A stretch of DNA of 48,150 bases from assembly GCA_947623925.1 (NCBI GenBank), contig CANQID010000006.1:1-48150 (forward strand), written 5' to 3'. Below the pieces are notes generated by a model, which saw nothing but the letters and a program-made list of their open reading frames with translations, was not told the DNA's origin and did no database searches. The DNA is from an uncultured Bacilli bacterium. GTDB lineage: Bacteria; Bacillota_I; Bacilli_A; RF39; UBA660. Below are positions 17,611-26,033 of this stretch, piece by piece (within the stretch, counting starts at the first letter, position 1; each line of letters opens with the position of its first letter). A program made the translations under genes and the position numbers.

Positions 17611-18945
17611 ATGAAAAAAGGATTTACATTAGTAGAATTATTAGCAGTAATAGTAATACTTGCAATAATAGCGTTAATAACAGTACCACTAATAATAAAT
17701 ATAGTGGAATCATCAAGAAAAGGTGCAGCAAGATCATCAGCATATGGATATATGGAAGGAGTAAATATATTTTATTCAAAAGAATTATTAAAAGGAAGCA
17801 ATTTTACATTAAATGGTACACTTAATGTAGATGAAAATGGATATTTAGAAGATAATAAAATAGAAGTAGAAGGAACAATGGCAAAAGGAGGACATTTAAC
17901 ATATAATAATGGAAAAGTAAGTGAAGGATGTCTAACAATAAATGAATATAAAGTAAGCATAGAAAATGATGAAGTAACAAATATAGAAAAAGGTAGTTGT
18001 GATGGAACAAGTACAGGACCAGTTGAACCAGATGTAGAAGAAAGTTCAACAGATTGGTTTACATTTGAAGATAATGATGATGGAACAGCAACAATAACAG
18101 GAGTATCTGATGTATGGAAGAATTTAGAAGATGAAAACAAATATGATATAGCAATACCATCAAAATCAACTAATGGAAATAGTGTTACAAAAATAGGTAA
18201 TAATGCATTTGCAAGTTGTACAGATGATATTTATGATTATGGAACATGCAATTTGAAAGGTGTTATCATTCCAAACAGCGTAATAGAAATAGGAGAAATG
18301 GCATTTGTTTTTAATAAACTCACAAGTATAAAAATCCCAAATAGTGTAACAACAATAGGAGAAGCTGCATTTATGAATAACAATCTCACAAGTGTAGTAA
18401 TTCCAGAAAGTGTTATAACAATATGCAATAGAGCATTTGCGGTAAATCAACTTACAAGTGTTAAAATTCCAAATAGTGTCACAATGATAGGATATGCTGC
18501 ATTTAATATAAATTTATTACCAGATGATCAAGCATTCATTTATAAAAGAAATGAAGATGGAACTGAGGATAGAACTATAATAGTAAGTTACGGTGGTAGT
18601 AAAAAGGATATAAAAATACCTAATAATATTATAACAATAGAAGGAGATGCATTTAGTGGAAATCAGCTCACAAGTGTTGTCATTCCAAACAGTGTCACAA
18701 CAATAGGGGAATATGCATTTGGAGAAAACAATCTAACGAGTATAATAATACCTGAAAATGTTATAACAATAGAATCAGGTGCTTTTCGTAAAGATGATTA
18801 TTCAAATTCAAATTTAACAAAAATAATAAATAAAACAGGGAAAGAATTTGATTGGGGTAGTATAACTGGTGGTACTACTGCTACTTTTAAGACAGGAACA
18901 ATAGAAAATTATAGTGGAAATATAGAAGTAACAGATACTGAATAA
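17611..18945 (+). CDS. Pseudopilin-like protein fused to BspA-type leucine-rich repeats
   Basis: A 444-residue protein with an N-terminal type IV prepilin signal: MKKG then FTLVELLAVIVILAI, with Glu at mature position 5, cleaved by prepilin peptidase. A pilin-like region of about 130 residues follows, then a Pro/Glu/Ser linker and, from about residue 195, five or six BspA-type (LRR_5) repeats with the pattern LTSVxIPNSVTxIGExAF. Such repeats occur in surface adhesins. The fusion suggests a pilus-associated or surface-displayed adhesive protein. No pilus assembly genes lie in the window, so the export route is inferred from the signal alone. Start: AGGAG before ATG 17611. Confidence 0.82.
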   Translation: MKKGFTLVELLAVIVILAIIALITVPLIINIVESSRKGAARSSAYGYMEGVNIFYSKELLKGSNFTLNGTLNVDENGYLEDNKIEVEGTMAKGGHLTYNNGKVSEGCLTINEYKVSIENDEVTNIEKGSCDGTSTGPVEPDVEESSTDWFTFEDNDDGTATITGVSDVWKNLEDENKYDIAIPSKSTNGNSVTKIGNNAFASCTDDIYDYGTCNLKGVIIPNSVIEIGEMAFVFNKLTSIKIPNSVTTIGEAAFMNNNLTSVVIPESVITICNRAFAVNQLTSVKIPNSVTMIGYAAFNINLLPDDQAFIYKRNEDGTEDRTIIVSYGGSKKDIKIPNNIITIEGDAFSGNQLTSVVIPNSVTTIGEYAFGENNLTSIIIPENVITIESGAFRKDDYSNSNLTKIINKTGKEFDWGSITGGTTATFKTGTIENYSGNIEVTDTE

Positions 18946-22345: not shown

Positions 22346-22858
22346 ATGATTAATAAAAGAAGTATTTGGTTTTTAACGCTTTTTTGTTTAATTTTAGTTT
22401 TAAGTGTATATTATGTCACTATGCCTAGTGAGTTATTATTAACAACAAATAGTAATTATACAAGCAGTGAGACAGAGGAAAGTAATGAACAACCTGTTGT
22501 ACAAGTAGAAGAAAATACAATCCTTACAAGCCTTAGAGTAGAAGCAGATGAACAAATGATGAATGAAATTGAACAATTGCAAGCGATCTTAACTAATAGT
22601 GAATCAACAGTAGAACAAAAAAATGATGCATATGAAAAAATAAAATCACTTAATTTAAATAAAGGTGAAGAACAACAAATAGAAAAGCAAATTTTAGATA
22701 CATATAAATTAAAATCTTTTGTTAAAGTAAATGGAAATCAAGTTAGAGTAGTTGTATTAAGTAAAGAGCATGATTCCTCTTTAGCAAATAATATTATGAG
22801 AACAGTACAAAGTAATTATGATAGTGAAATGTATGTCTCAGTTAAGTTTCAACAGTAA
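22346..22858 (+). CDS. spoIIIAH: Stage III sporulation protein AH (SpoIIIAH-like)
   Basis: A 170-residue single-pass protein whose start, KRSIWFLTLFCLILVLSVYY, closely matches SpoIIIAH. An acidic linker, a helical region (about 65-125) and a C-terminal ring-building-motif-like segment follow (KSFVKVNGNQVRVVVLSKEH). SpoIIIAH sits in the mother-cell membrane and binds forespore SpoIIQ across the intermembrane space. It usually ends the spoIIIAA-AH operon; here it is next to gerE and gerM with no other spoIIIA gene in view. Start behind TTGGAGGAATA. Confidence 0.85.
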   Translation: MINKRSIWFLTLFCLILVLSVYYVTMPSELLLTTNSNYTSSETEESNEQPVVQVEENTILTSLRVEADEQMMNEIEQLQAILTNSESTVEQKNDAYEKIKSLNLNKGEEQQIEKQILDTYKLKSFVKVNGNQVRVVVLSKEHDSSLANNIMRTVQSNYDSEMYVSVKFQQ

Positions 22859-22945
22859 TAGTTAGTAGTCCCTCACATAAGTTTCGTGGTTACATAAAAT
22901 AATATGAGTAAGTATAAACCACCCAACTAGGAAGTGAGGGAAATA
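22859..22945 (+). promoter_or_regulatory. Structured RNA sequestering the gerE ribosome-binding site
   Basis: The gap between the spoIIIAH stop and the gerE start forms a clear nested structure. CCCTCAC (22870-22876) pairs with GTGAGGG (22934-22940), which is the gerE Shine-Dalgarno region. Inside, GTGGTT (22886-22891) pairs with AACCAC (22917-22922), capped by TTAC-ATA/TAT-GA-GTAA. A further 5-bp pairing, TAGTT (22859-22863) with AACTA (22925-22929), would cross the first stem as a pseudoknot or an alternative. The spoIIIAH stop is 11 nt before the first arm, so a terminating ribosome could open the stem. Confidence 0.65.
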
Positions 22946-23152
22946 ATGACCAAGAGTATTCTAACAAAAAGAGAGAAAGAAGTTTTCGAACTACTTGTTT
23001 CAAATAAAACAACTAGTGATATTGCAAATGAATTAAAAATAAGTGAAAAAACAGTTAGAAATCATATATCAAATGTTATGCAAAAACTTGGAGTTAAAGG
23101 AAGAGCTGGAGCAATAGTAGAACTTTTAAAAATTGGCGAAATTTCGTTATAA
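22946..23152 (+). CDS. gerE: Spore transcription factor GerE
   Basis: A 68-residue LuxR/GerE-type DNA-binding protein consisting only of the helix-turn-helix domain, as in Bacillus GerE (about 74 residues). Motifs: LTKREKEVFELL, TTSDIANELKISEKTVRNHISNV split over the HTH, and MQKLGVKGRAGAIVELLKIGEI. GerE acts late in the mother cell, modulating sigma-K-dependent coat genes. ATG 22946 is used; the in-frame GTG at 22934 is part of the Shine-Dalgarno stem. gerE lying near gerM is also the arrangement in Bacillus subtilis. Confidence 0.88.
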   Translation: MTKSILTKREKEVFELLVSNKTTSDIANELKISEKTVRNHISNVMQKLGVKGRAGAIVELLKIGEISL

Positions 23153-23202: not shown

Positions 23203-24162
23203 ATGTTAAAAAAAATATCTATTAGAAAATTTATAATATCTTTTTCATCTTTATTTGCTTTGTTTCTAATTTATTTAATTCCAAATGATAAAAAAGAATT
23301 AGATAGTATTCCACAAGAACTTGAATATGTAAATACAAACATAGAAACTTCTAGTGTATATTTAATGGATAAATATAATATGCTAGGAAGGGCAGAAGTT
23401 GCAATAAGTTCTAAAGATATAGTTGATATTGCAAAAGAAACATTAGAAGTTCTTATAAGCGGAGGTACTAATGAAGATAAAATACCAAATGGGTTTAAGT
23501 CTTTATTACCTAGTGATACTAAAATACTTAGTTTAAGTTATAGTGATGGCTTAATAAAAGTAGATTTTTCTAAAGAATTATTAAATACAACTAAAGAAAT
23601 GGAAGAAAAAATAGTTGAAGCAATAGTTTATACTTTAACTAGTATTGATGGTGTAGATAAAATAATAATATATGTGGAAGGGGATATTTTAACTAAGTTG
23701 CCACAAACAAACATTAACTTGCCTAGTACATTAGATAGAAGTTTTGGCATAAATAAGGAATATGATATAAGTTCAATAAAAAATATAAATCAAGTAACAG
23801 TTTATTATATAAATAAAAATAATGACAATTATTACTATGTACCTGTAACAAAATATTTAAATGATGATAGAGATAAAATAAAAATAGTCATTGATGAACT
23901 AAGTGGTAATTCTATTTATAATACTAATTTAATGAGTTTTTTAAATAGCAATGCTGAACTAATATCAGCAGAAGAAATAGATGACATGATGCATCTTAAT
24001 TTTAATGAATATATTTTTAGTGATGTAGAGGAGAAAAATATTTTAGAAGAAGTAATTTATACAATAAGTTTATCAGTATGTGATAATTATGATGTAGATG
24101 GTGTAGTTATAAATGTTGCTGATGAAGAAATTTATAAAACTGTTTTAAAAAGTATTGAATAA
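23203..24162 (+). CDS. gerM: Spore germination protein GerM
   Basis: A 319-residue protein with an N-terminal membrane segment (about 9-27) and two GerMN domains: about 70-155 (LSLSYSDGLIKVDFSKELL, EAIVYTLTSIDGVDKIIIYV) and about 195-315. The second repeats the pattern less well (MHLNFNEYIFSD, EEVIYTISLSVCDNYDVDGV). In Bacillus GerM is a lipoprotein that helps localise the SpoIIQ-SpoIIIAH complex. No lipobox Cys is present here, so the anchor is probably the membrane helix. Its neighbourhood with spoIIIAH fits that partnership directly. Confidence 0.85.
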   Translation: MLKKISIRKFIISFSSLFALFLIYLIPNDKKELDSIPQELEYVNTNIETSSVYLMDKYNMLGRAEVAISSKDIVDIAKETLEVLISGGTNEDKIPNGFKSLLPSDTKILSLSYSDGLIKVDFSKELLNTTKEMEEKIVEAIVYTLTSIDGVDKIIIYVEGDILTKLPQTNINLPSTLDRSFGINKEYDISSIKNINQVTVYYINKNNDNYYYVPVTKYLNDDRDKIKIVIDELSGNSIYNTNLMSFLNSNAELISAEEIDDMMHLNFNEYIFSDVEEKNILEEVIYTISLSVCDNYDVDGVVINVADEEIYKTVLKSIE

Positions 24163-25430: not shown

Positions 25431-26033
25431 ATGAACGAAGAAAATTTTGATAAATGTGTGCAAGAAAAAATACTTAAACCTTGTTGTAGCCCTTGTTATG
25501 TATTAGGTCCAGCAGGACCAAGAGGTTCAATAGGTCCAACAGGGCCAACAGGGCCAATAGGTCCAACGGGCCCTGCTGGTATACCAGGTCCACAAGGAGA
25601 GGTAGGACCAACAGGACCTGCTGCAGGTCTTAATGCTTACGGAGGACTTTATTCAACTTCAGCACAAGCATTTCAAAAACAACAAAATCCTATTACTATT
25701 AATTTAGATAATCCAATGCAAGATTATGATGTGACAGGAGATAATAATGCTATACAAATAATAGAAGGTGGAATATATGAAGTAACTTACACTCTTACAG
25801 CAACTTTGAATGAAGCAGGTAATCTTGTTGTTGGAGTAAAAGAAAACGACAAGGATGTAGTAGGATCTTCCTCAACTATTACTTTAACGGAAGCAGGAAC
25901 TGGAATGATAGCAAATAATATCATTGTTAGATTGATAGATAAATCTTTAATTTCACTTGCAATACTTCCTACAACGACAGTTTCAGGAGCTACTATCAAT
26001 CAAGCATCTTTATCAGTTAAGTTATTAGACTAA
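25431..26033 (+). CDS. BclA-like collagen-repeat spore-surface protein
   Basis: A 200-residue protein with a Cys-rich N-terminus (Cys9, 18, 19, 22), then 13 uninterrupted Gly-X-Y triplets (residues 26-64; [15 protein letters not shown] type), and a ~130-residue C-terminal beta domain beginning NAYGGLYS, which resembles the trimeric C-terminal domain of BclA-type exosporium glycoproteins. The Thr in the triplets is a usual O-glycosylation site in such proteins. There is no signal peptide, consistent with assembly on the spore from inside the mother cell. A CATATGATA element at 25403-25411 resembles a sigma-K -10 box; this is weak. Start: AAGGAGATG. Confidence 0.82.

Follow-up and report, generated by a model that had tools for sequence, protein, structure and literature searches.

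The gerE gene of the genome studied here is preceded by a short stretch of sequence that appears able to fold over the gene's own ribosome-binding site. The gene (22946–23152, plus strand; ATG at 22946) encodes a LuxR/GerE-type HTH protein (Pfam GerE, 74.5 bits) and lies within the window, the whole 48,150-nucleotide stretch of DNA from an uncultured Bacilli bacterium that was analysed. Its upstream neighbor is a spoIIIAH-like gene (22346–22858, plus strand; Pfam SpoIIIAH, 46.3 bits) and downstream is a Pfam-confirmed gerM-like 'Germane' gene (23203–24162). The original prediction held that RNA from 22859–22945 masks the gerE Shine-Dalgarno (SD) sequence, and that the mask could be opened either by ribosomes translating spoIIIAH or by a ligand. 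Which gerE RNA would be masked, and what would release it? Within the family, gerE is present in 329 of 386 genomes; the approximately 15% in which it was not found are possibly sporulation-losing lineages or incomplete genomes.

The hairpin in the window

The core of the predicted structure is exactly as described: CCCTCAC (22870–22876) pairs perfectly with GTGAGGG (22934–22940), the SD region of gerE. Folding of 22859–22945 with ViennaRNA gave a masking stem of 8 bp, comprising the 5' arm UCCCUCAC (22869–22876, plus strand) and the 3' arm GUGAGGGA (22934–22941, plus strand), with AAGTGAGG of the SD region kept in 65 of 111 relatives. The free energy is -20.7 kcal/mol (z = -3.1 compared to dinucleotide shuffles), which for one sequence is only moderately beyond chance; it is comparison with relatives that makes the predicted masking structure convincing.

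Within the masking stem a nested, two-part hairpin had been proposed. One part, GTGGTT (22886–22891, plus strand) with AACCAC (22917–22922), does pair and the elements of the other, TTAC-ATA/TAT-GA-GTAA, are present, but the two cannot both be complete because the second shares TT (22890–22891) with GTGGTT. The 5' strand of this middle helix is weakly conserved, reading TTGGTT in the closest relative, while its 3' strand is contained in a conserved leader element, AAACCACCC (22916–22924, plus strand); AAACCACC occurs exactly in 27 of 111 relatives, compared to an expectation of 0.2. The sequence that we describe below as a -10 element forms a small inner hairpin with TATG (22903–22906, plus strand). 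An alternative pairing, TAGTT (22859–22863, plus strand) with AACTA (22925–22929), is also present and, as noted originally, crosses the masking stem.

A sigma-K-type promoter within the hairpin

The region contains a feature that had escaped the original prediction: a sigma-K-type promoter, CAC-N16-CATAAAATA, at 22874–22901. Its -35 element, CAC (22874–22876, plus strand), overlaps the 5' arm of the masking stem, and its -10 element, CATAAAATA (22893–22901, plus strand), is situated in the loop; the layout, CAC-N16-CATA, is that of published SigK promoters (PMC4750369). From the position of these elements, transcription is predicted to begin near 22908 (plus strand), approximately 7 nt after the -10 element, give or take 2 nt. 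The predicted start is downstream of the 5' arm, so the SD of an RNA started there could not be masked by this stem, and the main gerE transcript should thus be without the masking arm. For this reason the masking finding at first seemed refuted.

The promoter is a common property of the locus, being found in 175 of 204 homologous gerE loci. Among the upstream regions of 127 gerE loci, all belonging to the same family and class, [CA]AC-N15-17-CATANNNTA stands directly 5' of gerE in 106, where dinucleotide shuffles predict 0.7; the strict form, CAC-N16-CATANAATA, occurs in 62 (0.04 expected from shuffles of the same set). In a second set of loci the pattern was present in 69 of 77. The pattern alone is not specific when applied genome-wide: CAC-N16-CATANNNTA occurs at 10 other sites, compared to 7 for a reversed control pattern, and exact -10-like matches elsewhere were set aside as chance-like. 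The genome encodes SigK (TIGR02846, 300.0 bits against a cut-off of 298.65, at G000:C5:41196), and also a SpoIIID-like protein whose match (E 9e-28) falls short of the curated cut-off. In B. subtilis, gerE is dependent on, and activated by, sigma-K (PMC517825). The promoter described here resembles the B. subtilis type (CAC-N16-CATAnnnTA; PMC4750369, PMC517825) in its -35, -10, spacing, the gene controlled and the presence of SigK; it differs in that the gerE -35 element doubles as a masking arm, and its start is a predicted one. Conservation of the loop sequence is explained mainly by the -35 and -10 elements of this promoter.

Two additional sequence features accompany the promoter. Upstream of the -35 element, 59 of 110 relatives carry a strand-specific TRGGY box (25.7 in shuffles), mostly 14–15 nt upstream of the -35 C. 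On the basis of the known GerE consensus we take this box to be GerE-type, and its placement suggests that GerE may regulate its own gene; in the window the same position is occupied by TAGTT, the box being degenerate in this genome and genus. The predicted initially transcribed region, TATGAGTAAATATAAACCACCC (22903–22924), is strongly conserved across genera, beyond the promoter and SD, and on the minus strand of this region AGTTGGGTGGTT resembles a GerE site.

Two of the 10 other sites in the same genome are CAC-N16-CATA promoters directly 5' of Tyr/Pro/Gln-rich ORFs of 306 and 66 aa (L035, C4:41348, and L038, C7:15929). Their SDs are AGGAGG and unmasked, the first 60 residues have no Pfam matches, and the products are probable spore coat proteins.

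Covariation of the masking stem

Absence of covariation between the arms in relatives had been named at the outset as a finding that would count against masking. Among some 160 related genomes the masking is conserved, and the arms of the stem covary. To quantify the effect, the duplex formed by each locus' own -35 region and SD was compared to duplexes in which partners were swapped among loci. Cognate duplexes averaged -11.4 kcal/mol, compared to -9.7 kcal/mol for swapped duplexes (z = -9.9; 168 loci); in the first set of loci the corresponding values were -11.4 and -9.6 kcal/mol. Swaps between nearest relatives, used to take out shared ancestry, again left the cognate duplex stronger (p = 4.7e-7 for the 168-locus set; p = 8.5e-4 for 51 pairs from the first set), and an independent replicate of 68 fresh loci gave the same result (z = -5.6, p = 4.4e-4). 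Control duplexes (far-upstream with SD, -35 with coding, and far-upstream with coding sequence) were flat, as was the downstream gene gerM when used as a swap control. A positional scan placed the maximum signal at -16 to +14 around the -35 element paired with positions of roughly -20 to -4 relative to the start codon, which coincides with the predicted location of the stem.

Column pairs in a fixed register showed only slight covariation (497 standard pairs against 478 expected), and much of the signal is from stems of variable register. Because of this weakness, register-free duplex swaps and full-fold swaps were used instead. Strong covariation is limited to the masking stem: swap tests of the middle helix gave a weak signal, and the inner hairpin (CATA/TATG) around the -10 element was not significant by nearest-relative swaps.

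The consequences for the SD were estimated from folds of whole leaders. Averaged across the family, the SD has a probability of 0.58 of being unpaired in the short sigma-K RNA, compared to 0.28 in the long RNA and 0.42 once the 5' segment of the long RNA has been shuffled; of 96 loci, 44% mask their SD better than 95% of their shuffles do. When whole RNAs were folded with either the native 5' segment or those of nearest relatives, the SD was unpaired at 0.274 and 0.331, respectively (p = 2e-5). For the window itself, the SD is on average unpaired at 0.48 in the short RNA and 0.25 in the long RNA, and at 0.21–0.23 when the long RNA carries segments of relatives; its arms differ little from the family consensus, so that its own stem performs no better than those formed with relatives' segments. 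Part of the arm complementarity is thus shared consensus, and a strong stem is absent in about a third of loci.

Could the complementarity be a by-product of two elements, the -35 (CTCAC) and the SD (GTGAG), each conserved independently and without selection on their pairing? Both are indeed conserved, CAC and GTG alone supply three pairs, and random swaps between relatives already reach -9.7 kcal/mol. Cognate arms nonetheless outperform swapped arms among loci with the common CAC/GTGAG core, among loci without that core, against nearest relatives and in the replicate. Moreover, loci with other SDs carry other, matching arms (ATACATCACCT/AGGTGGTGTAT in L133 and TCACTTTCTAT/ATAGAAAGTGA in L016), and L003 is a further case in which unlike sequences still pair (ATTTCCCTCACT/AGTGAGGGAAAT). 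We consider a by-product improbable. An earlier idea, that the supposed masking was a mere -35 box, with locus L002 breaking GTGGTT, was likewise overturned by the swap tests. A different possibility is that selection acts on an inverted repeat in DNA, bound by a regulator such as GerE, rather than on an RNA stem. Antisense energies also covary (z = -8.3) and the GerE-type TRGGY box holds a fixed place near the -35; against this, the register, length and bulges of the stem differ among loci, unlike those of an operator, one half-site is always the SD, and there is a slight preference for sense over antisense, as expected for RNA, although a weak one (z = -1.9). To this reading we assign little probability. 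Taken across the relatives, the sequences indicate that masking of the gerE SD is under selection.

Transcript length as the probable basis of control

The original prediction combined two claims, of which the first, that a structured RNA masks the gerE SD, is borne out by fold and covariation. The second, that translation of spoIIIAH may open it, is not supported. If ribosomes terminating on spoIIIAH were to open the stem, then gerE would be made in step with SpoIIIAH. In the window the geometry is precisely that described, with the spoIIIAH TAA at 22856–22858 followed by 11 nt and then CCCTCAC, and the stop lies within 13 nt of the -35 element in a quarter of loci. Over all loci, however, anything from -2 to 118 nt separates the stop from the -35 element (median 20 nt), and 51 of 149 loci have a terminator-like T-run in between. 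The covariation persists in loci with T-runs (z = -4.3), is also seen in those without them, and extends to 28 loci that have no recognizable spoIIIAH C-terminus (z = -3.5). Furthermore, the sigma-K promoter is downstream of the spoIIIAH stop, and coupling is therefore unnecessary for the main transcript. Coupling to spoIIIAH is thus not a conserved property, and as the explanation for the hairpin it is very improbable, but in the genus of the window it could modulate the long RNA. Even less can be said for a riboswitch that unmasks the SD upon binding a ligand, which we regard as extremely improbable. A conserved loop and an SD-masking stem are what such a switch would show; the loop, however, is mainly promoter and start region, the inner helices have weak or no covariation, no conserved covarying core exists outside the masking stem, and sigma-K RNA would be without half of the structure. 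As in the original prediction, no known riboswitch class could be matched: an Rfam search, at gathering and lenient thresholds, returned no family for the region, only a tRNA elsewhere and chance matches.

The overlap of promoter and hairpin points to a different solution. From what was computed (structure, covariation, promoter pattern, their overlap and the presence of sigK) we infer a start site, the existence of a long RNA and an effect on translation, and consider it probable that the promoter-embedded hairpin keeps read-through gerE RNA silent, thereby making GerE synthesis dependent on sigma-K. The gene would be transcribed from its own sigma-K promoter, with the -35 in the 5' strand of the hairpin and the -10 in the loop. 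RNA arriving from upstream, by read-through from the spoIIIAH-like gene (a possible source) or from a leaky upstream start, would contain both strands, fold, and be poorly translated; sigma-K-started RNA would begin after the 5' strand and leave the SD more accessible. The hairpin would then be a filter of transcript length that restricts GerE synthesis to the sigma-K stage. Its simplest function is most likely to prevent translation of gerE RNA of read-through or leaky origin before sigma-K becomes active. In the window there is no T-run between the spoIIIAH stop and the gerE promoter; in relatives with a terminator-like T-run at this place (the 51 of 149 above), the hairpin would serve as a second safeguard.

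Arrangements of this kind are known. In T4, genes e (lysozyme), soc, 49 and I-TevI have an SD-masking hairpin in a long early RNA, with the late promoter in its 5' strand (PMC3014915). The gerE locus resembles gene e in that the hairpin's upstream strand holds the promoter, a long RNA would be masked while the stage-specific short RNA would not, and the arrangement would serve developmental timing; it differs in being a bacterial sporulation gene with a sigma-K promoter, and in that its translational effect is predicted from sequence. For B. subtilis sigG, a large hairpin has been proposed to block translation of the spoIIGA-sigE read-through RNA (PMC5942855, citing Masuda 1988); RNA initiated at PsigG cannot fold into this hairpin (PMC5942855). 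Here too a late sporulation regulator is downstream of an earlier-expressed sporulation gene, and for gerE, as for sigG, read-through RNA would be masked and RNA from its own promoter free of the hairpin. The differences are that gerE belongs to the mother cell and sigma-K, whereas sigG belongs to the forespore and sigma-F/G, and that the gerE hairpin comes with family-wide covariation tests. We found no earlier report of a promoter-embedded SD hairpin for gerE in the open-access literature searched.

If this account of gerE is correct, then a translational lock has been added at the last step of the mother-cell program, such that GerE is made only from sigma-K-started RNA. Selection would also have maintained, in over a hundred genera of uncultured gut Bacilli, a mechanism that is otherwise known from individual cases (T4 gene e, B. 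subtilis sigG). Further cases could be sought by a simple rule: an SD hairpin whose 5' strand contains a stage-specific promoter. Outside the family, most gerE loci of named Bacillaceae and Sporolactobacillus (L249, L259–L305) share the promoter type but have a different conserved leader, with an SD-masking CCC/GGG stem that falls entirely after the predicted start and is thus part of the predicted sigma-K transcript; this stem could be a translational damper similar to the small sigG RBS hairpin. A broader and rather unlikely suggestion is that promoter-embedded SD hairpins are a general means of insulating the sporulation cascade (gerE here, sigG in B. subtilis), with Bacillaceae gerE damped by its leader-internal hairpin. 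As a general device, it would ensure that the RNA of late regulators is translated only when made by the correct stage-specific sigma factor.

Two other genes in the window deserve mention. That at 25431–26033 encodes a collagen-like protein with a weak match, below the Pfam cut-off, to the BclA C-terminal domain; it is likely to be an exosporium-type filament protein. The N-terminus of the 17611–18945 product is pilin-like (MKKGFTLVELLAVIVILAIIALI), and after it come repeated leucine-rich-like units (SVTTIG..AF).
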